DNA from: Luteolibacter sp. LG18
GTDB taxonomy: Bacteria; Verrucomicrobiota; Verrucomicrobiia; Verrucomicrobiales; Akkermansiaceae
Length of the DNA stretch: 64,000 nucleotides
Assembly: GCF_036322585.1 (NCBI RefSeq)
Contig: NZ_AP024600.1
Location: 1,922,001 to 1,986,000 of the forward strand
Direction: 5' to 3'
Part shown: positions 6,916 to 57,002 of the stretch, piece after piece
Position numbering within the stretch: the stretch's first letter is position 1
Layout of the letters: each line of letters begins with the position of its first letter
Made by a program: the position numbers and the translations under genes
The notes under the pieces: model-generated
Databases searched by the model: none
Seen by the model: the letters and a program-made list of their open reading frames with translations, nothing else
Told to the model about the DNA's origin: nothing

Positions 6916-7950
6916 ATGAAACGCGCGCTCATCACCGGCATCACCGGTCAGGACGGCTCCTATCTCGCGGAACTGCTGCTTGAGAAGGGCTACGAGGTCC
7001 ACGGCATCATCCGCCGCTCCTCGACCTTCAACACCGACCGCATCGACCACATCTACCAGGACCCGCACCGCAGCGACAAACGACTGCTCCTGCATTACGG
7101 TGATCTCGCGGACGGCACCAATCTCGCGAAGCTGCTTTGCGAGATCCGGCCGGATGAAGTTTACAACCTCGCGGCCCAGTCCCACGTCCGCGTGTCCTTC
7201 GATGCGCCGGAATACACCGGCGATGTCACCGGCCTCGGCACCCAGCGCTTGCTGGAGGCGATCCGCCAGACCGGCCTGATCGAGCACGTCCGCTACTACC
7301 AGGCCTCGTCCTCCGAGATGTACGGCAAGGTGCAGGAGGTGCCGCAGACCGAGACCACCCCGTTCTGGCCGCGCTCGCCGTATGGCTGCGCGAAGATGTA
7401 TGCCTACTGGCTTACCATCAACTACCGCGAGGGCTACGGCCTTCACGGCAGCAACGGCATCCTCTTCAACCACGAGTCCCCGCGTCGCGGCGAGACCTTC
7501 GTGACCCGCAAGATCACCCGCGCCGCCGGCCGCATCAAGATGGGCCTGCAGGACAAGCTCTTCCTCGGCAACCTGGACGCGAAGCGCGACTGGGGCTACG
7601 CAAAGGAATACGTCGAGATGATGTGGCTGATGCTCCAGCAGGACACACCCGACGATTACGTGGTCGCCACCAACGAGACCCACTCGGTGAAGGAGTTCGT
7701 GCAGGAAACCTTCGGCCAGCTCGGTCTCGATTGGGAACAGTACGTCGATTACGACAAACGCTACGAGCGCCCCGCGGAAGTCGACCTGCTCATCGGTGAC
7801 CCGGCGAAGGCCAAGCGCCAGCTCGGCTGGGAGCCGAAGGTGCTGTTCAAGGACCTCGTGAAGATCATGACCGAGGCTGATCTCGAACTCGCGCGCAACG
7901 AGCGCGCCATCGCCCTCGCCACCGGCAAGCCGGTGGGGGCCGAACGCTGA
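6916..7950 (+). CDS. gmd: GDP-mannose 4,6-dehydratase
   Basis: First step from GDP-D-mannose to GDP-L-fucose or related 6-deoxy sugars. The 344 residues show [16 protein letters not shown] at the N-terminus, [11 protein letters not shown] (131-141) with the active-site Ser/Glu, Tyr156/Lys160 in [12 protein letters not shown], and [16 protein letters not shown], all diagnostic for Gmd. It follows fcl by 20 bases. No GDP-mannose-forming genes (manB/manC) are in the window, so GDP-mannose must come from elsewhere. Confidence 0.97.
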
Positions 7951-7955
7951 ATTCC

Positions 7956-7970
7956 TCCCGGTTTCCGGGA
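7956..7970. other. Perfect 6-bp inverted repeat between gmd and the fusion gene
   Basis: TCCCGG (7956-7961) and CCGGGA (7965-7970) around TTT form a short GC-rich hairpin in the 33-base gap. There is no T-tract, so it is not a convincing terminator; it may stabilise RNA or attenuate translation of the GTG-started gene at 7984. Confidence 0.25.
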
Positions 7971-7983
7971 AACCCCTCGCTGC

Positions 7984-9066
7984 GTGAAGAAGGTCTTCGT
8001 TTCCGGCTGCTACGACATCGTGCATGCCGGGCATCTCCAGTTCTTCGAGGAGGCCCGTGCCCTCGGCGACCACCTGACGGTGTCGTTCGCGTCCGAGGAG
8101 GTGCTGTGGATCCACAAGCGCCGCCGCCCCTCGATCCCGGACGAGCACAAGAAGGCGCTGTTGGAGGGGCTGCGGACGGTGGACGAGGTGGTCATCGGCA
8201 ACGGTCATGACGAGGGCATCGATTTCCGCGAGGACTTCCTGCGCATCCGGCCCGATTTCCTGGTGGTCACTGAGGATGACAAATATGCCCCGCTCAAGCG
8301 CGCCATCTGCGCCGAGGTTGGTGCCGAATACATCGTCCTGCCGAAGACCCCGCCGAAATTCACACCGGTCTCCACCTCCTCGATCGTGCGCTGGGTGCAG
8401 GCTCCGACCGAGGCCCCGCTGCGGGTCGACTTCGCGGGCGGCTGGCTGGATGTGCCGCGGTTCTCGCGTCCGGACGGCTACGTGGTGAACTGCTCGATTT
8501 CGCCGCTGGTGTCGCTCCGTGAGTGGCCCTACGAAAAGCAGGCCGGTCTCGGCGGCTCCGGAGCCTGGGCGCTGCTCAATGGCAAGGATGGCGTCGATGC
8601 CGAGCTCGACCTCGGCGTGGGCTGGCAGGATCCCGCCGTGATCCGTGAAACCGGCCTCTGCGTCTGGCGCTCCGGCCAGCGTCCAGTGCTCGATTTCAAG
8701 CGCAACGGCGACTTCCTCACCGGCTGCCTGGCGATCCTCTGGACCGGTGGCGATCACGACACGCCGGGCGTGGTCGAGCGGGCCCGCGATTACGACACCA
8801 TCGCCGCGTCCGGCCGCATCGCGCGGGACGGCGTGCTCCATGCCGATGCCGCCCGTCTGGCCGAGGGCATTTCGCTCTATCACCGTGCGCAGTTGGAGGA
8901 GGGGATGATCCCGCTCCCGGCCATCGAGGGCAGCCTCGCCGCGAAATACTGTGGCGGCGGCTACGGTGGCTATGCCGTCTATCTCTTCCCGGATCCGATA
9001 GTCCGCGCCGCGGCGCTTTCCCGCCATGCCGACCTCCGCGCGGTCGAGCCGTTCTGCAAAGTCTGA
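7984..9066 (+). CDS. Fusion of cytidylyltransferase-like domain and compact GHMP-type sugar kinase
   Basis: A 360-residue two-domain protein. Residues 1-138 are a nucleotidyltransferase of the RfaE/glycerol-3-phosphate cytidylyltransferase type: HAGH at 14-17 is the HxGH active site and STSSIV (130-135) the second nucleotide-binding motif. Residues 140-360 look like a shortened GHMP kinase: APLRVDFAGGWLDVP (motif 1, 144-158), GLGGSGA (phosphate loop, 188-194) and CGGGYGGYAV (motif 3, 323-332). Expected role: phosphorylate a sugar at C1 and then couple it to a nucleotide, like HldE or Fkp but with a different domain pairing. The kinase part, about 220 residues, is shorter than usual (about 300-350), so it could be degenerate. 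Starts with GTG. Substrate unknown; fucose or a heptose are guesses from context. Confidence 0.78.
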   Translation: MKKVFVSGCYDIVHAGHLQFFEEARALGDHLTVSFASEEVLWIHKRRRPSIPDEHKKALLEGLRTVDEVVIGNGHDEGIDFREDFLRIRPDFLVVTEDDKYAPLKRAICAEVGAEYIVLPKTPPKFTPVSTSSIVRWVQAPTEAPLRVDFAGGWLDVPRFSRPDGYVVNCSISPLVSLREWPYEKQAGLGGSGAWALLNGKDGVDAELDLGVGWQDPAVIRETGLCVWRSGQRPVLDFKRNGDFLTGCLAILWTGGDHDTPGVVERARDYDTIAASGRIARDGVLHADAARLAEGISLYHRAQLEEGMIPLPAIEGSLAAKYCGGGYGGYAVYLFPDPIVRAAALSRHADLRAVEPFCKV

Positions 9067-10587: not shown

Positions 10588-11493
10588 GTGCCCAACTACC
10601 AACTCTCCCACCTCGACCAGATCGAAGCCGAGGCGATTTTCGTGCTCCGCGAGACCGCGGCGCAGTTCCAGAACCCGGCGCTTCTCTTCTCCGGCGGCAA
10701 GGACTCGATCGTGATGGCGTGGCTCGCCCGCAAGGCCTTCTGGCCCGCCCGCATGCCGTTCCCGCTGGTCCACATCGATACCGGCCACAATTTCCCGGAA
10801 ACGATGGTCTACCGCGATGAGTTCGTGGAAATGCTGGGTGCCCGCCTCGTGGTCGGCTCCGTGCAGGAGTCCATCGACACCGGCCGCGTCGTCGAGGAAA
10901 AGGGCCCGAACGCCTCCCGCAACGCGCTCCAGACCGTGACCCTGCTCGACACCATCGAGCACCACCAGTTCGACGCCTGCCTCGGTGGTGGCCGCCGCGA
11001 CGAGGAAAAGGCCCGCGCCAAGGAGCGCTTCTTCTCCCACCGCGACGACTTCGGCCAGTGGGACCCGAAGAACCAGCGCCCCGAGCTCTGGAACCTTTTC
11101 AATGGCCGCAAGAACTCCGGCGAGCACTTCCGCGTCTTCCCGCTGTCCAACTTCACCGAGATGGACATCTGGATGTACATCAAGCGCGAGAACATCCCGC
11201 TGCCATCCCTCTACTTCGCCCACAAGCGCGACACCCTCGTCCGCAACGGCGCGATCCTCGCGATCTCCGAGTTCGTCCAGCCGCGCGAGGGAGAAACCGT
11301 CGAGCACAAGCAGATCCGCTTCCGCACGATGGGCGACGCCACCATCACCGGCGCGATCGAATCCGACGCCGTGACGCTCGACCACATCATCGATGAGGTC
11401 GCCGCCGCCCGCCAGACCGAGCGCGGCAACCGCGCCGACGACAAGCGCTCCGAAACCTCCATGGAAGACCGCAAGAAGGAAGGCTATTTCTAA
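10588..11493 (+). CDS. cysD: Sulfate adenylyltransferase subunit 2
   Basis: Catalytic ATP-sulfurylase subunit that makes APS from ATP and sulfate, driven by the CysN GTPase. The product is 301 residues, the usual family length, starting from GTG 10588; the open frame extends 32 codons upstream but without family similarity. The PP-loop SGGKDS lies at 35-40, followed by HIDTGHNFPET near 64-74. Later segments GGGRRDEEKARAKER and the C-terminal TSMEDRKKEGYF are characteristic of CysD. It lies 51 bases before cysN. Confidence 0.96.
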   Translation: MPNYQLSHLDQIEAEAIFVLRETAAQFQNPALLFSGGKDSIVMAWLARKAFWPARMPFPLVHIDTGHNFPETMVYRDEFVEMLGARLVVGSVQESIDTGRVVEEKGPNASRNALQTVTLLDTIEHHQFDACLGGGRRDEEKARAKERFFSHRDDFGQWDPKNQRPELWNLFNGRKNSGEHFRVFPLSNFTEMDIWMYIKRENIPLPSLYFAHKRDTLVRNGAILAISEFVQPREGETVEHKQIRFRTMGDATITGAIESDAVTLDHIIDEVAAARQTERGNRADDKRSETSMEDRKKEGYF

Positions 11494-11510
11494 CCGACCT
11501 CCTCCTTCTT

Positions 11511-11538
11511 TCCGCACTTCGAAATCCGCACTCCGAAA
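11511..11538. repeat. Tandem pair of 14-base units between cysD and cysN
   Basis: TCCGCACTTCGAAA (11511-11524) is followed directly by TCCGCACTCCGAAA (11525-11538), a 13/14 match, filling half of the 51-base gap. Its architecture resembles the pair at 3-30, although the sequences differ. Function unknown. Confidence 0.5.
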
Positions 11539-11544
11539 TTTTCC

Positions 11545-12789
11545 ATGGACCTTCTCCGCTTCACCACCGCCGGCTCCGTCGACGACGGCAAATCCACCCT
11601 CATCGGCCGCCTCCTCTACGATTCCAAGTCGATCTTCGAGGACCAGCTCGAGGCCGTCGAGGAATCCTCGCGCCGCCGCGGTGACGAGCACGTCAACCTC
11701 GCCCTGCTGACCGACGGCCTCAAGGCCGAGCGCGAACAGGGCATCACCATCGACGTGGCCTACCGCTACTTCGCCACGCCGAAGCGCAAGTTCATCATCG
11801 CCGACACCCCGGGGCACATCCAGTACACCCGCAACATGGTGACCGGCGCCTCCACCGCGAACCTCGCCATCATCCTGGTGGACGCGCGCAAGGGCGTGAT
11901 CGAGCAGACCAAGCGCCACAGCTTCATCGCGAACCTGCTTCGCATCCAGCACGTGGTTGTGTGCGTCAACAAGATGGACCTCGTCGACTACTCGGAAGAG
12001 GTCTACAACCAGATCGTGAAGGACTACGAGGCCTTCGCCTCCCGCCTCGACAACATCGTCGACATCACCACCATCCCGATCTCCGCGCTCAACGGCGACA
12101 ACGTCGTCGACAAATCGGACAAGATGTCGTGGTTCCAAGGCCCATCGCTGCTCTACCACCTTGAGCACGTCTACATCGGCGGCGAGGAAAACCACGTCGA
12201 CGCGCGTTTCCCGGTGCAGTGGGTGATCCGCCCGATGAGCGACGAATGGCACGACTTCCGCGGCTACGCCGGCCGCGTGGCGGGTGGCGTCTTCAAGCCC
12301 GGCGATGAGGTCACCGTGCTGCCCTCCGGCTTCAAGACCCACGTCAAGGCCATCCACACCCCGGAAGGCGAGATCTCCGAGGCCTTTGCTCCCCAATCCG
12401 TCTGCCTCACCCTGCGCGATGAGATCGACATCTCCCGCGGCGACATGCTGGTGAAGAGCAACAACCCGCCGAAGGTCGCCCAGGACATCGAGGCGATGAT
12501 CTGCTGGTTCTCGAACAAGCCGATGCCGCCGCGCGCCAAACTCGTGCTGCGCCACACCACTCGCGAGACCAAAGCGGTCGTGCAGGAGATCAAGTACCAT
12601 GTCGACATCAACACCCTTCACAAGGTCGAGGATGTCGAAGGCTTTAACATGAACGACATCGGCCGCATCACCCTGCGCACCGCGGTGCCGCTGCTGCACG
12701 ATTCCTACCGCCGCAACCGCCACACCGGCTCGTTCATCCTCATCGATCCCGGCACCAATGAAACGGTCGCCGCAGGGATGATTCTCTGA
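11545..12789 (+). CDS. cysN: Sulfate adenylyltransferase subunit 1 (GTPase)
   Basis: Elongation-factor-like GTPase that powers APS synthesis by CysD. G1 motif GSVDDGKST is at residues 10-18, the G3 motif DTPGH is in IIADTPGHIQYTRNM near 86-100, and G4 is NKMDLVDY near 142-149. The 414-residue protein contains the GTPase and two beta-barrel domains but no C-terminal APS-kinase domain, in agreement with separate cysC. A terminator-like hairpin follows within about 10 bases, closing the sulfate-activation set. Confidence 0.96.
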   Translation: MDLLRFTTAGSVDDGKSTLIGRLLYDSKSIFEDQLEAVEESSRRRGDEHVNLALLTDGLKAEREQGITIDVAYRYFATPKRKFIIADTPGHIQYTRNMVTGASTANLAIILVDARKGVIEQTKRHSFIANLLRIQHVVVCVNKMDLVDYSEEVYNQIVKDYEAFASRLDNIVDITTIPISALNGDNVVDKSDKMSWFQGPSLLYHLEHVYIGGEENHVDARFPVQWVIRPMSDEWHDFRGYAGRVAGGVFKPGDEVTVLPSGFKTHVKAIHTPEGEISEAFAPQSVCLTLRDEIDISRGDMLVKSNNPPKVAQDIEAMICWFSNKPMPPRAKLVLRHTTRETKAVVQEIKYHVDINTLHKVEDVEGFNMNDIGRITLRTAVPLLHDSYRRNRHTGSFILIDPGTNETVAAGMIL

Positions 12790-48666: not shown

Positions 48667-49593
48667 ATGAAAATCATCAGTGGAACCGCCCACCGGGCCC
48701 TAGCCGAACGCATCGCAGACGTCCTCGGACAACCTCTTGCCGATGTGCATGTTACCGCCTTCCCGGACGGTGAAACTTTCGTCAAAATCAACGAGAACAT
48801 CCGCGGCGAGGACGTCTTCATCGTGCAGCCATCGTGCCCGCCGACGAACCACAACATCATGGAGCTGCTGATCATGGTGGACGCCGCCCGCCGCGCCAGC
48901 GCGGAGCGGATCACCGCCGTGATGCCCTTCTTCGGCTATGCCCGCCAGGACCGCAAGGACCAGCCGCGCGTGCCGATCACGGCGAAACTGGTGGCGAACC
49001 TGCTGACCTCCGCGGGCGTGAACCGGGTGCTGACGATGGACCTGCACGCGCCGCAGATCCAGGGCTTCTTCGACATCCCGGTGGACCACCTCTACGCGAA
49101 GTCCGCGCTCATCGGCTACCTGCGTGAGCGTCATCCGGACACCTCCAATCTCACCGTGGTCTCCCCGGACGTGGGTGGCGTGAAGATGGCCCGCGCTTAT
49201 GCGGAGGCCCTCGGCGCCGACCTGGCGATCGTGGCGAAGCACCGCGTCTCCGCCACCAAGGTGGAGGCGATGAACGTGATCGGTGAGGTGGAAGGCCGTG
49301 ACGTGCTTTTGGTCGATGACATGACGGAAACCGCCGGCACGCTCACCGCGGCGGCCGAGATTCTCCAGAAGCATGGTGCCAAGCGCGTGTTCGCGGGCGT
49401 TTCCCATGCCGTGCTGGGCGAACTGGGCCACGATCGGATCCGCGATTCGGTGATCGAGGAAGTGATCACCACCGACTCCGTGCCGCAGGCCGAGGGGCCG
49501 AAGGTGAGGGCGGTGGGCATCGCGCCGCTGCTTGGCGAGGCGATCCGCCGCATCAGCGGGGGCCAGTCAGTGACCTCGTTGTTCGAGGTGTGA
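48667..49593 (+). CDS. prs: Ribose-phosphate pyrophosphokinase
   Basis: Makes phosphoribosyl pyrophosphate from ribose-5-phosphate and ATP for nucleotide, histidine and tryptophan synthesis. The 308-residue product shows KIISGTAHRALAE, FPDGETFVKI, RQDRKDQPRVPITAK and the PRPP-binding VLLVDDMTETAGTL near 216-229, all diagnostic. It is divergent from the exosortase, separated by 95 bases. A structured repeat starts 6 bases after its stop. Confidence 0.97.
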   Translation: MKIISGTAHRALAERIADVLGQPLADVHVTAFPDGETFVKINENIRGEDVFIVQPSCPPTNHNIMELLIMVDAARRASAERITAVMPFFGYARQDRKDQPRVPITAKLVANLLTSAGVNRVLTMDLHAPQIQGFFDIPVDHLYAKSALIGYLRERHPDTSNLTVVSPDVGGVKMARAYAEALGADLAIVAKHRVSATKVEAMNVIGEVEGRDVLLVDDMTETAGTLTAAAEILQKHGAKRVFAGVSHAVLGELGHDRIRDSVIEEVITTDSVPQAEGPKVRAVGIAPLLGEAIRRISGGQSVTSLFEV

Positions 49594-49598
49594 AGAGG

Positions 49599-49730
49599 TG
49601 TAGCTGAAAGCCCTGCTTTCAGAGTGTCCCGGATGGCTCCAGTCATCCGGCGGAAGCGGTTTGTTCGTTCCGTCCGCCACCGCCAACTGGAGCTGGCGGA
49701 GACGATCCGAAGGCGGAGCCTCCGGCTACA
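49599..49730. repeat. Structured dispersed repeat, copy 1
   Basis: About 132 bases starting TGTAGCTG and ending CGGCTACA, so its ends are near-inverted repeats. It contains three hairpins: CTGAAAG with CTTTCAG, CGGATG with CATCCG, and CCGAAGGC with GCCTCCGG (one mismatch). A second copy lies at 56756-56889; outer segments are almost identical, and the middle 35 bases differ. Two base-pair positions changed in both arms between copies. It lies directly after prs and may also act as its transcript end. Confidence 0.85.
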
Positions 49731-49775
49731 TGGGAAGATGGAATTTCCTGTTAGGGAGATGAGTCATGTGCTGGG

Positions 49776-51335
49776 ATGTGGACCATCATGAACCGTGGTC
49801 GTGTCCCGCTTTTCCGTTCCCTGATCGACTGTCTCCGCGAGGCCCATGTGGCCAATACCGCCGGGGAGGGCTGGTCCCGCCGTGAATTCCTGCAGACGCT
49901 CGGTGCGGTCGGGGCGGCGGGTGCCTTGTCCGGGTGCGTGGCCGTGCCGACGCCGGGGCGGAACGTGCGCGGGCCGGTGGTCATCGTCGGCGGTGGGATC
50001 GCGGGGCTGACGGCGGCGCTGCGGCTGATGCAGCAAGGGGTGGATTGCGAGCTCTACGAGGCCTCGCCGCGGTTCGGCGGGCGAATGTTCACGAAGCGGG
50101 ACTTCAACCGCGACGGGATGTTCTGCGAGCTGGGCGGCGAGCTGGTGGACACCAACCACAAGGCGCTGATCGATCTGGCGCGGGAGTGCCATATTTCCAC
50201 CCAGCCGCTGAAGAAGGGCGAGAAGGGCCTCGATTTCTACCACATCGGCGGGAAGGTCTTCACGGACCGGGACCTGATCCCGGCGTTCCAACCGCTGGCG
50301 AAGCGTATCGCGGCGGACGCGGAAGGGCTCACGGACGCGCAGGACGAGTACACGGCGAAGGCGCGGCGGCTGGATGCGGTCAACTTGAAGCATTACCTGA
50401 CCGGATCGCGGCATGACACGCCCGCGTGGTTGATCGAGATGCTGGATGTGGCGTATTGCTGCGAGTACGGCGTGGACACGGTGCACCAGAGCGCGCTGAA
50501 CCTGGTGAACTTCATCGGCACGGACACGAAGGACGGCTTCGAGATGTTCGGAACCAGCGATGAGTCGATGCGGATCGAGGGTGGCAACGACCGGGTGCCG
50601 ACGGCGGTGTACGGGAAGATTTCGAAGAAGGTGCGGACGTTTCCGGAGCACGAGCTGGCGTCGATCGCGCGGACGAAGGGCGGGCTGCGGCTGACCTTCC
50701 GCCACGGCAGCCAGCGGGTGGTGAAGGAGGCGGCCCATGTGGTCTGCGCGATCCCGTTCACGGTGCTGCGGAACGTGGAGGGGATCGATTCGCTGGGGCT
50801 GAGCGCGGACAAGCGGCGCGCGATCCACACCTTCGGCTACGGGGCGAACGTGAAGGTGATGTGGGGCGTGAAGGAGCGGGTGTGGCGCGAGGAAACCGGC
50901 GGCCGGGACTTCTACTGCAATGGCTCGGTGGTGTCCGACCTGCCGTTCCAGCAGTTCTGGGAAACCAGCCGCGGCCAGAAGGGGCGCTCGGGGATTCTGA
51001 CCAATTTCATCGGCGGCACGCCGGCTGCGACCTGGAGCGCGGAGCGCCTGAAGGCATTCCCGGGCGAGGCGGAGAAGGTGTTCCCGGCGCTGGCGGGCCA
51101 GTGGGACGGGAACCGGGCGGTGATGAACTGGCCGAAGGTGAAGTGGAACCGCGGCAGCTACAGTGCGACGCTGGTGGGGCAGTACACGTGGGCCTACGCG
51201 GCTTCGGCGACACCGGAGCTGGACGGGGCGCTGGTGTTCGCGGGCGAGCACACCAGCCCGGATTTCGGCGGATTCATGAACGGCGGGGTGGAATCCGGCG
51301 AGCGGGCGGCGAAGGAGGTGCTGGCGAAGGCCTGA
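49776..51335 (+). CDS. Tat-exported flavin amine oxidase
   Basis: A 519-residue flavoprotein of the monoamine-oxidase/phytoene-desaturase-like family. The N-terminus has a twin-arginine signal SRREFLQTLG (Arg35-Arg36) and a possible lipobox ending at Cys54 (ALSGC), so it is exported folded with its FAD and may be lipid-anchored. VVIVGGGIAGLTAALRL is the FAD-binding fold, and ALVFAGEHTSPDFGGFMNGG is the C-terminal FAD motif with the conserved GEHTS. Start at ATG 49776; ATG 49788 is close. Substrate unknown. Confidence 0.88.
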   Translation: MWTIMNRGRVPLFRSLIDCLREAHVANTAGEGWSRREFLQTLGAVGAAGALSGCVAVPTPGRNVRGPVVIVGGGIAGLTAALRLMQQGVDCELYEASPRFGGRMFTKRDFNRDGMFCELGGELVDTNHKALIDLARECHISTQPLKKGEKGLDFYHIGGKVFTDRDLIPAFQPLAKRIAADAEGLTDAQDEYTAKARRLDAVNLKHYLTGSRHDTPAWLIEMLDVAYCCEYGVDTVHQSALNLVNFIGTDTKDGFEMFGTSDESMRIEGGNDRVPTAVYGKISKKVRTFPEHELASIARTKGGLRLTFRHGSQRVVKEAAHVVCAIPFTVLRNVEGIDSLGLSADKRRAIHTFGYGANVKVMWGVKERVWREETGGRDFYCNGSVVSDLPFQQFWETSRGQKGRSGILTNFIGGTPAATWSAERLKAFPGEAEKVFPALAGQWDGNRAVMNWPKVKWNRGSYSATLVGQYTWAYAASATPELDGALVFAGEHTSPDFGGFMNGGVESGERAAKEVLAKA

Positions 51336-51411
51336 GAGGGCGCTTTTTTGCGATTTCCGGGGTCCGGAGGGGCACAACGCCTGTCGAGGGAAGGGTTTAA
51401 GCAACAAAATT

Positions 51412-51440
51412 TTGACAAACCCGCGTTCTCCCGATACAGA
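51412..51440 (+). promoter_or_regulatory. Probable sigma70-type promoter for rplY
   Basis: A perfect TTGACA (51412-51417), 17 bases, then TACAGA (51435-51440), a weak -10. It lies 63 bases before the rplY start, within the A/T-rich part of the gap. A GC-rich inverted repeat (CCCCCGG/CCGGGGG) follows from about 51444 and may form a leader hairpin. Confidence 0.5.
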
Positions 51441-51502
51441 CCGCCCCCCGGTCCGGGGGTTGGAACCTCCGGCGCATCCCGCAACATCCACCACTTCCTG
51501 TC

Positions 51503-52090
51503 ATGGCCACCAAGCAGACACTCAAAGCCGCCCCGCGCGCGCGCACCGGCTCCGGCCGCCTCAACCAGATGCGCAAAGAGGGCTGGCTGCCGTCCGTCAT
51601 CTACGGGCGCAACACCGAGAACGTGAACCTCAAGGTCGATGCGAAGACCTTCGCCGAGCTTCTCGCCCACAGCACCTCGGACAACATCCTGATCAACCTC
51701 GATGTCGAGGGTCAGGGCGTCCGCCTCGCTTTCCTCCAGTCCATCCAGCACGACGCCATCTCCGGCGCCGCCCTGCATGCCGACTTCCTCGCCATCGACG
51801 AGAAGACCGAAATCACCGCCCACATCCCGGTGCACCTCAATGGTGAGCCAGCTGGCGTGAAGGCCGGTGGCGTGGTGGAACAGTACGTCCACACGCTCGA
51901 AATCGTCTGCCTGCCGAACGACCTTCCGGACACCATCGAGGTGGACGTGACCGGCCTCGGCGTGGGCGCCTCCCTCCACATCTCGGAGCTGGGCCTGCCG
52001 AAGGGCGTGAAGGCCACGCACGCCGGTGACGTCGTCGTCGCCCACGTGGGTGTCCCGGGTGCCGGTCTCGAGGAGACCCCGGCCGCCTGA
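51503..52090 (+). CDS. rplY: 50S ribosomal protein L25/general stress protein Ctc
   Basis: Binds 5S rRNA in the large ribosomal subunit. The 195-residue protein is the long CTC form: an N-terminal L25 domain (LKAAPRARTGSGRLNQMRKEG, then LPSVIYGRNTENVNLKVD) and a C-terminal beta domain (HIPVHLNGEPAGVKAGGVVEQ, LPNDLPDTIEVDVTGL). It has its own apparent promoter and a strong terminator downstream, and begins a cluster of translation genes (pth, rpsF). Confidence 0.96.
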   Translation: MATKQTLKAAPRARTGSGRLNQMRKEGWLPSVIYGRNTENVNLKVDAKTFAELLAHSTSDNILINLDVEGQGVRLAFLQSIQHDAISGAALHADFLAIDEKTEITAHIPVHLNGEPAGVKAGGVVEQYVHTLEIVCLPNDLPDTIEVDVTGLGVGASLHISELGLPKGVKATHAGDVVVAHVGVPGAGLEETPAA

Positions 52091-52108
52091 GCCAACTGAT
52101 TTTTCCGA

Positions 52109-52145
52109 AACGCCCGGTCCGCGCTGCGGAGCCGGGCGTTTTTGT
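52109..52145 (+). terminator. Rho-independent terminator after rplY
   Basis: AACGCCCGG and CCGGGCGTT, extended by TCCGC/GCGGA with one bulged base, form a stem of about 14 pairs around GCT, followed by a T-run (52139-52143). It ends rplY and isolates it from the toxin-antitoxin pair. Confidence 0.9.
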
Positions 52146-52189
52146 GTTCGGGACTTGCGGAAAAAGACATCCCCGACTAGTCATTTGGC

Positions 52190-52429
52190 ATGAAGGCATC
52201 GGTGGTCGACCTACGGTACCGAACCAAGGAAATCCTGCACGCGCTGGAGACGGGGGAATCCATCGAGCTGACCCACCGTGGTCAGACGAAGGGGGAGATC
52301 GTGCCGGTGGCGGCGAAGACGAGGTCCTCGCTGGCGGATCATCCGGCGGTGGGGATGTGGCGGGACCAGGAGGAACCGGTCGAGGACATGGTGAAGCGAC
52401 TTCGAAAGCCGAGATTCCATGTTGATTGA
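52190..52429 (+). CDS. Type II antitoxin, Phd/YefM-like
   Basis: A 79-residue protein. The N-terminal VVDLRYRTKEILHALETGES and IELTHRGQTKGEIVPVAAK match the Phd/YefM antitoxin fold (DNA-binding, neutralising a toxin with the C-terminal tail). The tail PAVGMWRDQEEPVEDMVKRL would wrap the PIN toxin. It overlaps the toxin gene by 11 bases, the usual coupling. The pair probably represses its own promoter in the short gap before it. Confidence 0.88.
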   Translation: MKASVVDLRYRTKEILHALETGESIELTHRGQTKGEIVPVAAKTRSSLADHPAVGMWRDQEEPVEDMVKRLRKPRFHVD

Positions 52430-52796
52430 TACCGATGTGTTGATCTGGTGCCTGCGAGGGAACCCGAAGGCGCTGGCGCGGCTCGATGGGCTCGCGGACT
52501 GCCGGGTTTCCCAGGTCACGCGGATGGAATTGATCGCCGGTTGCCGGGACAAGGCGGAGATGCGCCTGCTGAAGCGGTTTCTAGCCGACGGCGGATTCCG
52601 GGTGATGCCGCTGAGCGAGGAGATCGGTCATCGGGCGGACCTGTGGCTGGAGGAACACGTGCTCCAGCACGGTGCGGGGCTGGCGGATTGCTTGATCGCG
52701 GCCACGGCGTCGTTGGCGGGACTTCCCTTGTTGACGGGCAATCACAAGCATTTCAGACACTTTCCGGCGCTGGAGGTGGAGGAGTTCCGCCCCTAG
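52419..52796 (+). CDS. PIN-domain toxin (VapC-like ribonuclease)
   Basis: A 125-residue PIN nuclease. Acidic metal-site residues are visible: Asp4/Asp6 in LIDTDVLIW, Glu37 in VTRMELIAG, Asp90 in LADCLIAATA, and the C-terminal LLTGNHKHF where Asn108 replaces the last Asp, as in many PIN proteins. It cleaves RNA, in several VapCs initiator tRNA or rRNA. Encoded with the Phd-like antitoxin between rplY and pth. Confidence 0.92.
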   Translation: MLIDTDVLIWCLRGNPKALARLDGLADCRVSQVTRMELIAGCRDKAEMRLLKRFLADGGFRVMPLSEEIGHRADLWLEEHVLQHGAGLADCLIAATASLAGLPLLTGNHKHFRHFPALEVEEFRP

Positions 52797-52817
52797 TCCA
52801 GACGCTTCCCATTTCCC

Positions 52818-53402
52818 GTGGACACATTTTCCCTGATCATCGGCCTCGGCAATCCGGGGCGGCAGTATGAAGGCACGCGGCACAATGTCGGGTTCATGGT
52901 GCTGGACCGGCTGGCGGCGAAGGCCGGGGTGGCCTTCGAGAGCAAGCCGAAGTGGCAGAGCCACCTGGCGAAGCTGCCGGACGGCACGCTGCTGCTGAAG
53001 CCGCAATCCTTCATGAACCTGAGCGGGCGGCCGGTGCAGCAGATCCTGGCCTTCCACAAGTGGACGCCGGACCGGATCCTGGTGGTGTATGACGACGCGG
53101 CGCTGCCGCTGGGCTCGCTGCGGTTCCGGGAGAAGGGGTCCCATGGCGGGCACAATGGCATCCGCTCGCTGCTCCAGCAACTGGGGACGGACGTGTTTCC
53201 GCGGCTGAAATTCGGGATCGGCGGCAGCGCCGAGGGCGAAATGGTGGGCCATGTGCTGGGGAATTTCCGACCGGAAGAGCGGGACCTGCTGGAAAACACG
53301 CTTGCTTCCGCCGTTGATGCCGTACAGGTTGCGCGCTCCCAAGGCGTCGCCGTCGCGGCGAACCGCTTCAACACCCGCTCCAACTTACCTCCAACACCAT
53401 GA
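52818..53402 (+). CDS. pth: Peptidyl-tRNA hydrolase
   Basis: Releases tRNA from prematurely dropped peptidyl-tRNA. The 194-residue protein has IIGLGNPGRQYEGTRHNVGF with catalytic His22, LLLKPQSFMNLSGRPV and GSHGGHNGIRSLLQQLGTD, the full family signature. GTG start. Its stop overlaps rpsF by 4 bases, indicating coupled translation. Confidence 0.97.
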   Translation: MDTFSLIIGLGNPGRQYEGTRHNVGFMVLDRLAAKAGVAFESKPKWQSHLAKLPDGTLLLKPQSFMNLSGRPVQQILAFHKWTPDRILVVYDDAALPLGSLRFREKGSHGGHNGIRSLLQQLGTDVFPRLKFGIGGSAEGEMVGHVLGNFRPEERDLLENTLASAVDAVQVARSQGVAVAANRFNTRSNLPPTP

Positions 53403-53686
53403 GCCGCAAATACGAAGGCCTGATTATCCTCAACACCAAGGGTGTCGAAGGCAGCGTCGATGAGACCGTCGCCAGCGTCGCCAAGGAACTTGAAACCGAA
53501 GGCGCCAAGGTCGGCGAGATCAAGCAGATCGGCCGCCGCAAGTTCGCCTACAACGCGCAGCACCTGGAAGCCGGCCACTACGTGACCTACGTCTTCTCCG
53601 CCGAGCCGGCCGCGATCACCAAGATCCAAGCCCGCCTCGCCCTGAACGCGAAGGTGCACCTCCAGCACTTCCAGCGCGTCGCCTGA
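53399..53686 (+). CDS. rpsF: 30S ribosomal protein S6
   Basis: Small-subunit protein binding the central 16S domain with S18. The 95-residue product shows RKYEGLIILNTKGVEGSVDE, GEIKQIGRRKFAYNAQHLEAG and YVTYVFSAEPAAITKIQA, as in S6. It overlaps pth by 4 bases and is followed by ssb. The rpsR and rplI genes that often follow are not present here. Confidence 0.96.
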   Translation: MSRKYEGLIILNTKGVEGSVDETVASVAKELETEGAKVGEIKQIGRRKFAYNAQHLEAGHYVTYVFSAEPAAITKIQARLALNAKVHLQHFQRVA

Positions 53687-53693
53687 GCCGCGT

Positions 53694-53709
53694 TCGCTCT
53701 TCGGAGCGA
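53694..53709 (+). other. UUCG-type hairpin between rpsF and ssb
   Basis: TCGCTC and GAGCGA pair around TTCG, the very stable UUCG tetraloop. No T-tract follows, so it is more likely an mRNA stability or processing element than a terminator. Confidence 0.45.
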
Positions 53710-53754
53710 TCCGTCTTGCGACACCCCGGACTTTCTCCGTAGGTTCACGCTCAC

Positions 53755-54255
53755 ATGGCCAATTTGAACAAAGTTCTCCTGCTGGGGAATCTGACCCGCG
53801 ATCCGGAGCTCCGCTACACGCCGAAGGGCACCGCCGTGGCGGACATCGCCCTGGCGATCAACCGGGTCTGGACGAACGAGCAGAACCAGCGCCAGGAAGA
53901 AACCACCTACGTGGACATCACCCTGTGGGGACGGCAGGCCGAACTGGCCCAGCAGTACCTCACGAAGGGCCGCGGCTGCTTCATCGAAGGCCGCCTGCAG
54001 ATGGACACGTGGGAGGACAAGGCCACCGGCCAGAAGCGCAGCAAGCTCAAGGTCGTCGCCGAGAACCTCCAGTTCCTGCCGGATGGCAAGGGCGGCCCCG
54101 GCGGTCCTCCGTCCGGTGCCAGCCATGCTCCGCAGGGCAATGGTGGTGGCTACTCCCGCCCCGCAGGCGGTCCTCCGCAGCGCTCCGGCCCGCCGCAGGG
54201 TGGCTCCGCCGCTCCGGTGGAGGATTACCACGACGAGGACGACATTCCGTTCTGA
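53755..54255 (+). CDS. ssb: Single-stranded DNA-binding protein
   Basis: Protects single-stranded DNA and recruits replication and repair proteins. The 166-residue protein has the OB fold (residues 1-110: NLNKVLLLGNLTRDPELRYT, YVDITLWGRQAELAQQYL), a Gly/Pro-rich linker, and the acidic tail DEDDIPF, the interaction peptide. It follows rpsF, a common arrangement. Confidence 0.97.
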   Translation: MANLNKVLLLGNLTRDPELRYTPKGTAVADIALAINRVWTNEQNQRQEETTYVDITLWGRQAELAQQYLTKGRGCFIEGRLQMDTWEDKATGQKRSKLKVVAENLQFLPDGKGGPGGPPSGASHAPQGNGGGYSRPAGGPPQRSGPPQGGSAAPVEDYHDEDDIPF

Positions 54256-54281
54256 AGCGGTCGCCGAACCGATGATTTTGA

Positions 54282-54318
54282 AAAACGCGCTCCGGGAACG
54301 GGGCGCGTTTTGTTTTTC
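54282..54318 (+). terminator. Rho-independent terminator after ssb
   Basis: AAAACGCGCTCCG and CGGGGCGCGTTTT form a 13-pair stem around GGAA (one G-T), followed by a T-rich run. It closes the pth-rpsF-ssb group. Confidence 0.9.
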
Positions 54319-54428
54319 AGGGATGAAGCCGCGGAGCGTATCCGGAGGAGCGTTCAGGAGGGGCCTGGTCGCCGTTGAGTGACAGGCCATCACCTTCCCG
54401 TCATGTTGATCCGGGTAAGAGGGAGGGG

Positions 54429-55700
54429 ATGAAAGTTCGTGCGAATCTCTTGTTGGTGCCGGTCGCCGTGATGGCGGGGCTGGCTGGATTCCTCGCCGGT
54501 CGACAGGCGGAACGAGGTGGGTCCGGAGGAGGATCCGGGGTGCCTTCCTTGACGGCGGATTGGAATCCGGGTGCCACCGGTCGGGCGGGGCGCTCGGATG
54601 CGGGTGAGGTGGCTGGTTCCGCTGGAGGCCGGCGTTCGCGGCTTTCCTCCCTGGCGAAGCTGGGTCGGGAGCAGGTTCAGGAAAAGATGGGCGCCTTGAT
54701 GCGGAGTCCGGATGCGCAGGACCGGGCGCGGGCGTGGCTGGATTTTGTGGACGGGCTTGAACCGGGGCAGTTCGAGCAGGTGGTGGCGGATTTCCGTTCG
54801 ATGGGATTGTCCGGCTCGAACCTGTCGGAGTATGCCACGCTTTTGTCCGCGTGGGCGAAGCATGATCCGCTGGCGGCGCTCGATTTCGCGGAGAAGAACA
54901 CGGGCAACGTGTTCGCCCGGCAGACGATTCTGGCGACATGGGCGAATTCCGACTTGGCCGGTGCGATCGGTTGGGCAAACGGTCATTTCCAAGGGACACC
55001 GGATCAGGGAAACCCGTGGATGGTGGGGGTGATCCGGGGCATCGCGGCGGGCGATCCGGCGCGGGCGTCGCAATTGATGCAGGAGATGCCGTTTTCGCGG
55101 GAGCGCGGGGACGCGCTGGTGGCGCTGATCCCGACGGTGATGGCGCGGGGGGCGACCGAGGCGATGGCATGGGCGGATGGATTGCAGGACTCGTCGCTGC
55201 GGGATCGTGCGATGCGTGAAATCGCTCCCCGTCTGGCGGAGAAAGATCCCCAGGGGGCGGCGAACTGGCTGGCTGCGGCGAACACGCCGGAAGCCGCCAA
55301 TACGATCGACGATGTCATGACGGTGTGGATGAAGGCGAGTCCATCCGAGGCGGTGGGTTACTATGAAAGGCTGCCCGCGGGGGCGATGCGGACCGAGGCG
55401 CTGAGCAGCCTGGTCAGCTCAATGGCCTCCACCGATCCGGGGCAGGCGCTGGCGTTCCTGAGCAGCCACCGTGGCGAGGCGACGGATCCGATCTACGGGG
55501 AGTTCATCAAGAACTCGGCGGGCAGCCAGCCGGAGCTGGCGGTGGAGCAGATCGCCAACATCCAGGACGTGCAGAACCGTGACCGGACCTACCTGAAGAC
55601 GATCGGGAAGTGGATGAAGCGTGATCCGGATGCCGCTCGCCAGTATCTGGCGAGCGGCCGTGTGCCGGCGAATGTGGTCCAGCAGTTGAACGGCGGCTGA
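54429..55700 (+). CDS. Exported or membrane-anchored protein of helical repeats
   Basis: A 423-residue protein. The N-terminus ANLLLVPVAVMAGLAGFLAG is a signal/anchor helix, followed by a Gly/Ser-rich linker. From about residue 115 the protein repeats a pattern of roughly 30-40 residues, seen in WAKHDPLAALDFAEK, WANSDLAGAIGWANG, IAAGDPARASQLMQ, LAEKDPQGAANWL and MASTDPGQALAFL: a short Ala/Trp-rich helix pair with a conserved Asp-Pro. This resembles HEAT/Sel1-like scaffolds and is of a type abundant in Verrucomicrobia. A purine-rich ribosome-binding stretch precedes ATG 54429. Function unknown. Confidence 0.75.
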   Translation: MKVRANLLLVPVAVMAGLAGFLAGRQAERGGSGGGSGVPSLTADWNPGATGRAGRSDAGEVAGSAGGRRSRLSSLAKLGREQVQEKMGALMRSPDAQDRARAWLDFVDGLEPGQFEQVVADFRSMGLSGSNLSEYATLLSAWAKHDPLAALDFAEKNTGNVFARQTILATWANSDLAGAIGWANGHFQGTPDQGNPWMVGVIRGIAAGDPARASQLMQEMPFSRERGDALVALIPTVMARGATEAMAWADGLQDSSLRDRAMREIAPRLAEKDPQGAANWLAAANTPEAANTIDDVMTVWMKASPSEAVGYYERLPAGAMRTEALSSLVSSMASTDPGQALAFLSSHRGEATDPIYGEFIKNSAGSQPELAVEQIANIQDVQNRDRTYLKTIGKWMKRDPDAARQYLASGRVPANVVQQLNGG

Positions 55701-55802
55701 ACTTGACTGCGGCGGGGGCGGCGTTAGATCCCATGATCGTGGCAGGAGGGTGATCCCGGTGCCTGCCACGCCTTGAATCCCAACATCAACCCCTGTCATC
55801 CC

Positions 55803-56228
55803 ATGCAAGTTCTCTATACAGCCGAGGCCACCGCGACCGGTGGTGGTCGTGATGGAAAGTCCGCCACCTCCGACGGCAAGGTCGATGTGGCGCTTTCGAT
55901 TCCCAAGGAGCTCGGCGGCCCCGGCGGTCCGGGGACGAACCCGGAGCAGCTTTTCGCGACCGGCTACTCGGCCTGTTTCCTGGGCGCGCTGCGGTTCGTG
56001 GCGGGTCAGGCGAAGATCCACCTCCCTGCGGAAACCAAGGTCACCGCGCAGGTGGGGATCGGGAAACGGGACGATGGCGGCGGCTTCGGGCTGGAGATCG
56101 AGCTGACGATCCAGTCGGAGGGCTTCGACCGCGCGCAGCTTGAGGAGCTGGTGCAGAAGGCGCACGTGGTGTGCCCGTATTCGCATGCGACGCGTGGCAA
56201 CGTGCCGGTGACGCTGACGGTGGCGTGA
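55803..56228 (+). CDS. Organic hydroperoxide resistance protein (Ohr/OsmC)
   Basis: Thiol peroxidase that reduces organic hydroperoxides. The 141-residue protein begins with VLYTAEATATGGGRDGKSAT, has NPEQLFATGYSACFLGAL with the peroxidatic Cys58, and AHVVCPYSHATRGN with the resolving Cys124, the Ohr type rather than OsmC. ATG 55803 gives the normal N-terminus. A terminator follows. Regulation by an OhrR-like repressor is common, but no such gene is in the window. Confidence 0.94.
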   Translation: MQVLYTAEATATGGGRDGKSATSDGKVDVALSIPKELGGPGGPGTNPEQLFATGYSACFLGALRFVAGQAKIHLPAETKVTAQVGIGKRDDGGGFGLEIELTIQSEGFDRAQLEELVQKAHVVCPYSHATRGNVPVTLTVA

Positions 56229-56259
56229 GGATCGGCAGGTAATCCGATTGATTTCGAGG

Positions 56260-56296
56260 CAGCCGGGGGGAGCGATTCTCCCGGCTGTTTGCTTTT
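56260..56296 (+). terminator. Rho-independent terminator after ohr
   Basis: CAGCCGGG-GAG and CTCCCGGCTG pair around CGATT with a small G bulge, followed by GTTTGCTTTT. It ends the ohr transcript. Confidence 0.75.
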
Positions 56297-56320
56297 CCGG
56301 CGGGTTTTCTTGGGAAAGGG

Positions 56321-56764
56321 ATGCTGACGATTCCGGAATCGAGGGGATGGCTGAGGATACTGCGGCTCGGGCTGTTGTTCAGCGCCTGCGGGTGGGGCAT
56401 TTCCTTTTGGTTCACCTTCGTGCCGTGGGACGAGGCCGCCGACCAGCTCCAGGGGATGGGCGCGCGGCCGCTGCGGTATGATCCGATCCTGGATTACTGG
56501 CTGAAGATGGCGTCGAGCGCGTTCGGGTGCATCGGGGTCGCCTCGGCGCTCGCGTGCTGGCGGCCTGGGGCGTTCGCGGGGTTGGTGAAGCTGCTGCCGG
56601 GGTTCCATTTGTTCGTGGGCACGACGCTGCTGGTGTCGTCGCGGTTGAACCATCTGAACCCGCACCGGCATCAGACGTTCATCGCGGACATCACGTTCTG
56701 TTTCGTGACGGCGGTGCTGATCGGGTTGCCGTTGCTGGCTCGAGGTGGGCGGAGATGTAGCTGA
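56321..56764 (+). CDS. Small integral membrane protein, C-terminus running into a repeat
   Basis: A 147-residue protein with four hydrophobic segments (LRLGLLFSACGWGISFWFTF, the region near 65-80, LPGFHLFVGTTLLVSS and FCFVTAVLIGLPLL), no known domain. Its last three codons and stop come from repeat copy 2 starting at 56756, so the repeat probably inserted at or near the original 3' end. Function unknown. Confidence 0.55.
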   Translation: MLTIPESRGWLRILRLGLLFSACGWGISFWFTFVPWDEAADQLQGMGARPLRYDPILDYWLKMASSAFGCIGVASALACWRPGAFAGLVKLLPGFHLFVGTTLLVSSRLNHLNPHRHQTFIADITFCFVTAVLIGLPLLARGGRRCS

Positions 56765-56889
56765 AAGCTCTGCTTTCAGAGTGTATCGGACGGCTCCAGT
56801 CGTCCGGTGGGGGTGGGCGTCGCTTGGCCGGTGGGCCACCGCCAACTGGAGCTGGCGGAGACGATCCGAAAGCGGAGCTTCCGGCTACG
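56756..56889. repeat. Structured dispersed repeat, copy 2
   Basis: About 134 bases starting TGTAGCTGAAAG and ending TTCCGGCTAC. It matches copy 1 (49599-49730) over its outer parts with few changes. Hairpins: CTGAAAG/CTTTCAG, CGGACG/CGTCCG, CCGAAAGC/GCTTCCGG. Relative to copy 1, ATG/CAT became ACG/CGT and GGC/GCC became AGC/GCT, which keeps the pairing. It overlaps the end of the upstream membrane-protein gene. Confidence 0.85.
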
Positions 56890-56967: not shown

Positions 56968-57002
56968 TGTAGCTTTCCGACGCGGAATCGCTTAAAGCTA
57001 CA
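56968..57002. repeat. Short palindromic element with TGTAGC ends
   Basis: TGTAGCTTT (56968-56976) and AAAGCTACA (56994-57002) form a perfect 9-bp inverted repeat around 17 bases. The ends share TGTAGC/GCTACA with the larger repeat copies, so it may be a reduced relative of that family. It lies 30 bases before the PVC cytochrome gene, and could affect its transcription. Confidence 0.6.

Follow-up and report, generated by a model that had tools for sequence, protein, structure and literature searches.

We analysed a 64,000-nt stretch of the genome of Luteolibacter sp. LG18 (contig NZ_AP024600.1, positions 1,922,001 to 1,986,000; hereafter the window) that contains two copies of a structured repeat, one just past the ribose-phosphate diphosphokinase gene prs and the other at the end of an open reading frame (ORF) that had no match in Pfam and NCBIfam searches (Table 1). 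An earlier note, made from the letters alone, had described the two copies, placed both at gene 3′ ends and proposed that paired base changes between them reflect a selected fold, with termini like those of repetitive extragenic palindromic (REP) sequences, bacterial interspersed mosaic elements (BIMEs) or miniature inverted-repeat transposable elements (MITEs). The repeat is real, its edges lie one base further in on each side than had been reported, and the two copies align in two ungapped blocks, with 86% identity over 71 nt and 96% over 54 nt. Each copy comprises four hairpins, H1 to H4, and the paired changes seen earlier are present, one in H2 and one in H4 (motifs in Table 1). Predicted folding was stable beyond chance, with z-scores of −5.1 for copy 1 as RNA and −6.3 for copy 2 as DNA. 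Both copies do sit at gene 3′ ends, and copy 2 itself supplies the stop codon of its neighbour, a TGA within GTAGCTGA, as the note had it. We put the probability at roughly 85% that the element is a non-autonomous REP-type mobile repeat, of the BIME or REPIN (REP doublet forming hairpins) kind, spread by a REP-associated tyrosine transposase (RAYT)-type enzyme through single-stranded DNA.

The two copies belong to a dispersed family. In the genome of the window (G000; one contig, 5.80 Mb) the element had 45 BLAST matches (40 of 143 candidates scored), and a covariance model (R1) built from an earlier subset of 32 copies (A1) had 123 matches over both strands, corresponding to at least 63 non-redundant places; this number is a lower bound because 150 of 6,454 first-look candidates were scored. 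The copies at 43 of these places are full length and make up alignment A2; the remaining 20, truncated or degenerate, were left out of it. By pattern, all four modules are present in 42 of the 43 full copies, the H2 pattern being absent from one. A full copy runs from GTAG–H1 through a short spacer, H2, a centre of ~35 nt, an inverted H3 and another short spacer to an inverted H4–CTAC, and is an inverted pair of tandem 8-bp hairpins. H1 is mostly CTGAAAGC-TCY-GCTTTCAG; H2 occurs as two types in one 8-bp register, GGGGAAGC/GCTTTCCC in 34 copies and CGGAYGGC/GTCRTCCG in nine, both window copies among the latter. H3 and H4 are the same kind of hairpin when taken on the − strand, where GTCT or GTAT precedes H3 and GTAG precedes H4; in most copies H2 is a GTAG hairpin too. 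A short stem-loop bears an unpaired GTAG at one end and the copies are many and dispersed, as in the GTAG REP superfamily, and two REPs lie in inverted orientation around a spacer, as in BIMEs and REPINs. The flanking bases favour AAT ahead of GTAG and ATT or AAT behind CTAC; in many copies AAT also precedes the inner GTAG, that of H2. A pattern for the outer REP, allowed up to two mismatches, had 101 matches in G000, and its reversed control had none. Of the full-length copies, 31 have H1 first when the contig is read on its + strand and 12 when it is read on its − strand (binomial P 0.005).

Table 1. Features of the two window copies, their neighbours and the candidate transposase of congener G117 (window positions unless a locus is named).
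Feature	Coordinates	Strand	Remarks
Copy 1 of the element	49600..49729	+	130 nt, GTAG to CTAC; 6 nt past prs stop; covariance model 134 bits
H1 of copy 1 (outer hairpin)	49604..49622	+	preceded by GTAG 49600-49603
H2 of copy 1 (inner hairpin)	49630..49649	+	preceded by GTCC; holds CGGATG/CATCCG
H3 of copy 1 (inner hairpin)	49680..49699	-	GTCT-hairpin when read on - strand
H4 of copy 1 (outer hairpin)	49707..49725	-	GTAG-hairpin on - strand (CTAC 49726-49729); holds GGC/GCC
Copy 2 of the element	56757..56888	+	132 nt; covariance model 143.6 bits
H1 of copy 2	56761..56779	+	preceded by GTAG 56757-56760; TGA 56762-56764 is the stop of ORF 56321-56764
H2 of copy 2	56787..56806	+	preceded by GTAT; holds CGGACG/CGTCCG
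H3 of copy 2	56839..56858	-	
H4 of copy 2	56866..56884	-	CTAC at 56885-56888; holds AGC/GCT
Ribose-phosphate diphosphokinase gene (ribose-phosphate pyrophosphokinase, prs)	48667..49593	+	outside the element
Neighbour ORF, 147 aa	56321..56764	+	end supplied by copy 2
RAYT candidate of G117	L136 1021-1788		255 aa as open frame; PF01797 E 4e-7; NCBIfam REP_Tyr_transpos E 1e-20, 74.1 bits

Changes among the copies keep the pairing, and the covariation first proposed from two copies stands out above both shuffles and register slides when 43 are compared. Paired cells made up 94.8% in the full-length copies and 90.9% in shuffles; 55 cells had changed on both sides (13.8 in shuffles, with none of 500 reaching 55), both-side changes affected seven pairs (4.0 in shuffles, with 4 of 500 reaching 7), and sliding the partners by 1–3 columns lowered pairing to 34–51%. 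The number of further pair types in the 43 copies was not above shuffles (104 of 500 reached the observed value). Pairing was also counted on the first 32 copies. The two H2 types may reflect a module swap rather than stepwise covariation. RNAalifold favoured closing the element end to end, and we chose the local hairpins over that fold because both-side changes occurred in 5 of its 40 pairs, four of which lie within or beside H2. In both window copies 8 nt of the H2 loop are complementary to the H3 loop, as expected of a folded non-coding RNA or DNA in which these loops kiss. However, loop deletions were uncoordinated, with a shortened H3 loop in 3 of 5 copies that have a shortened H2 loop and in 15 of 38 that do not (Fisher P 0.63), and the complementarity follows from the hairpins being related and inverted; we rejected kissing loops as unsupported and regard them as very improbable.

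The near-inverted ends TGTAGC...GCTACA would also suit a MITE, in which terminal inverted repeats of a classical DNA transposon are moved by a DDE transposase. Here the earlier note was right about the REP/BIME class, given GTAG-tagged inverted hairpins in many copies at gene 3′ ends, and its MITE reading is less apt, as no target-site duplication lay directly at the edges of the 43 full copies: edge-adjacent identical 3-mers occurred in four (shuffled 3.1) and 4-mers in none. Moreover, every inverted end is a hairpin itself and not a plain terminal repeat. The one result favouring a MITE, which we consider the least likely of all the explanations, was a 4-mer match four bases out in three of the 43 copies (shuffled 0.23; 0 of 500), one of 40 combinations scanned.

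Placement relative to genes was strongly skewed. Gene contexts, which are approximate (a home-made codon score trained on 33 window ORFs), were unidirectional at 33, convergent at 21 and divergent at 7 of 61 places, with 2 of the 63 unassigned. Facing 3′ ends lay within −20 to +25 nt of an element in 48 of 75 cases and facing 5′ ends in 8 of 49, and 40 of the 63 elements had a 3′ end in this range, the placement that characterizes the GTAG REP superfamily. Fifteen elements supply a stop codon, 12 by the TAG of GTAG and three, including window copy 2, by the TGA of GTAGCTGA; that GTAG ends often furnish TAG stops has already been published (Di Nocera et al. 2013, PMC3733652). Such placement past stop codons, along with the stable predicted folds, could mean that the elements are kept as RNA, giving the upstream mRNA a structured 3′ end that stabilises, attenuates or terminates it, and Di Nocera et al. 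read the 3′ placement and the G–T stems of REPs as hints of an RNA function in the passages concerned (PMC3733652). Yet the reading direction is not fixed, because as many 3′ ends meet the H1 side as the H4 side (24 each), and 3′ placement can also stem from purifying selection on insertions. A scan for terminator-like sites placed none in either window copy (four found in the region, 5.9 expected), and Rfam had no match in the window at gathering score and none at copy 1 even when E values up to 1 were allowed.

Wobble pairs also bear on the choice between RNA and single-stranded DNA, which had been left open. On the + strand of the 43 copies, wobble or mismatch cells in H1 and H2 were 46 G–T and 3 A–C, and those in H3 and H4 were 64 A–C and 5 G–T, an A–C there being a G–T on the − strand. 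A transcript with H1 first would carry those 64 A–C mismatch cells in H3 and H4, which become G–T on the other strand only. By DNA energies the + strand gave the more stable left half in 41 of 43 copies, and the − strand the more stable right half in 42, so that each half folds best on the strand where GTAG begins it. Strand-specific folding of this kind fits a transposase that reads the REP, and not its inverse, on single-stranded DNA, and a single RNA would not require it; in the relevant sections of Corneloup et al. 2021 (PMC8266576), TnpA-REP is described as processing the REP but not its inverse. The polarity rule is followed by all four variants present in at least eight copies, and by those alone as a set. 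Wobble polarity therefore leans towards the single-stranded DNA half of the earlier alternative, with a serious caveat taken up below, and we regard selection as RNA as unlikely. Comparing G–T with A–C polarity offers an easy way to test, from sequence, whether selection acts on RNA or on single-stranded DNA, and could be extended to other inverted REP dimers.

We then turned to related genomes, as the earlier note had proposed. The outer REP pattern, at up to one mismatch, was found among 73 genomes of the genus in G000 (94 matches) and G117 (63) and in no other, and G117, one of 72 congeners, has the family both by pattern and by covariance model. Across 195 genomes of the taxonomic family, the pattern search added one match each, with one mismatch, in G046, G059 and G129. 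A model search of 39 relatives matched G000 alone because G117 was outside that sample. Eleven genome stretches from unrelated organisms, with one match each, were taken as chance. The best 25 G117 places differ in make-up from the G000 copies: 17 have H2, H3 and H4, four have all four hairpins, three have H1, H2 and H4, and one has H2 and H4. H2 serves as an outer end in G117, and the H2...H4 form recurs around a G117 RAYT gene and in nearby clusters. Around this gene, at 2.4567 Mb, the interval 2.10–2.55 Mb of G117:C1 holds 33 of the 54 outer-REP matches listed (of 63) in 8.5% of the genome, and one-kb bins with an outer REP number 21 inside the interval and 18 outside, clustering that suggests local spread or a regional bias. 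An array at 2494411-2494818 of G117 has six REPs spaced ~77 nt apart.

At all four sites compared between the two species, the element was absent from G117. At prs, conserved flanks enclose 146 nt (G117:C1 3948477-3948622, opposite window 49594-49739) that hold another GTAG-ended palindrome of the same length; because that palindrome differs, the same spot is held by two REP families in two species. The G117 relative of the gene before copy 2 continues to its own stop, in a rearranged neighbourhood. At G000 2970549 the right-hand alignment to G117 begins at the first base past the element, and at G000 2977032 an intergenic stretch of 393 nt corresponds to 131 nt in G117.

G117 also carries the likely transposase of the family. 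It has six PF01797 matches, five above cut-off, and family dimers flank its RAYT gene of L136 on both sides, making a REPtron; its true start is probably near 1131, because the first codons overlap a REP. The RAYT that the earlier note had suggested looking for was found, flanked by the same repeats, in the congener and not in G000. None of the 16 PF01797 (Y1_Tnp) genes of G000 has a model place closer than 4.9 kb; L017 stands apart in having a 17-nt half-REP core, ~120 nt downstream of the gene, that ends where L017's own inverted repeats start. This locus (L017 1275-1291 and 1850-2010; G000 ~3020000) is a short RAYT-like gene with long inverted repeats of its own at a broken-off family REP, and looks as though a RAYT element had inserted into a REP of a different family. 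The half-REP speaks against calling G000 cleanly orphaned: the L017 element may have struck a family copy there, or the half-REP may be a remnant of an earlier association. The best match to the G117 RAYT gene in G000 is 67% identical over 299 nt, and the nearest protein there is L022 (51%). Four RAYT-like G000 loci (L009, L013, L022 and L024) have different GTAG palindromes of their own on one or both sides; because these differ, several REP families coexist in G000. The G000 copies look orphaned: their cognate transposase, probably of the kind present in the related species G117, has likely been lost, or another RAYT may act on them in trans.

Taken as a mobile REP, the unit would consist of two GTAG-tagged outer REP hairpins, inverted head to head, and a second inverted hairpin pair inside. 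In single-stranded DNA the GTAG-first half of each strand would fold into its hairpins; a RAYT-type HUH tyrosine transposase, for which the L136 protein is the candidate, would recognise GTAG plus hairpin on that strand, cut the unit and join it elsewhere; and insertions would survive mainly directly past stop codons. Several points weigh against this account. A perfect empty site was found at none of the four sites compared, prs having the other palindrome and the others differing beyond the element, and what we report is presence and absence by sequence comparison, not observed movement. The REP_Tyr_transpos match of L136, at 74.1 bits, is below the NCBIfam cut-off of 80, and G000 has no family-flanked RAYT, the best model score beside its 16 Y1_Tnp loci being 10.5 bits. 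Pair counts from A2 lean to the modelled structure, because the model to which A2 was aligned, and whose pairs are counted, derives from A1, and cell counts are not independent because the copies are related. Finally, the wobble polarity is weak when distinct sites and types are counted, 6 to 3 for H1 and H2 and 4 to 4 for H3 and H4.

The modules shared between the species also allow a more specific, tentative scenario, in which the family is a compound REPIN. A simpler dimer would have gained tandem hairpins at its ends, and the four-hairpin unit would have become the replicator in one species, its sister keeping mostly three-hairpin and, round the RAYT, two-hairpin forms; in G000 the unit would have outlived its own transposase, persisting alone or moved by the RAYT of another family. 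Two-, three- and four-hairpin units made of the same modules occur across one species pair, and the likely transposase was found in just one of the two species. This makes it practical to ask which REP unit replicates and whether REPs persist or move without a RAYT of their own.

The class is well known: 3′-end placement, stop codons and compensatory changes of REPs are already published. In the passages that treat them, Di Nocera et al. (PMC3733652) describe 24 GTAG families, some in Opitutus terrae (Verrucomicrobia), with head–head dimers, 3′ placement and dimers that have two more stem-loops in the spacer. The present family shares with these the GTAG tag, 6–9-bp stems, short loops, head–head dimers, G–T stem pairs, placement past genes and GTAG-supplied TAG stops, and differs from those described there in its two tandem hairpins at each end. 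Four hairpins have precedents in the same account: CGTC-3 dimers of Agrobacterium tumefaciens have two more stem-loops in the spacer, but bear a CGTC tag and are presented there without a known transposase, and double inverted repeats of P. putida and P. fluorescens join GTAG units to a further stem-loop, but their second stem-loops are unrelated, whereas H2 here is mostly a GTAG hairpin itself. With REPINs, as portrayed in the corresponding parts of Bertels and Rainey 2011 (PMC3116915), the family has in common an inverted REP doublet, a folding spacer and compensatory changes, which are called common there, but it has four hairpins rather than two. The short perfect palindrome behind GTAG recalls group 3 of the TnpA-REP/REP systems (PMC8266576). 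The present family and the G117 protein are described here from sequence. Three core strings of the family matched no paper in literature text, which says little, as consensus sequences sit in figures. We propose a new GTAG-REP (BIME/REPIN) family, compared with published ones by description, which may equal one of them; less usual are the four-hairpin unit, the probable loss of a cognate transposase in G000, the module differences between two species and the wobble polarity leaning to single-stranded DNA.

Several further repeats and one domain arrangement were seen. Between window copy 2 and the next gene lies a small separate inverted repeat, TGTAGCTTT...AAAGCTACA (56968-57002). Locus L171 holds a ~200-nt repeat with inverted arms (11476-11682) that has about ten further places in G117, and a tandem array of the 7-mer GAGGTTA (~7890-8025) adjoining one element. 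On the minus strand of L135 (460-3168; G117:C1 ~4122237-4124945), a 903-codon open stretch matches GcpE/IspG (PF04551) in two stretches and also holds Y1_Tnp (PF01797, residues 502-556), a RAYT-like domain in frame inside an ispG gene.

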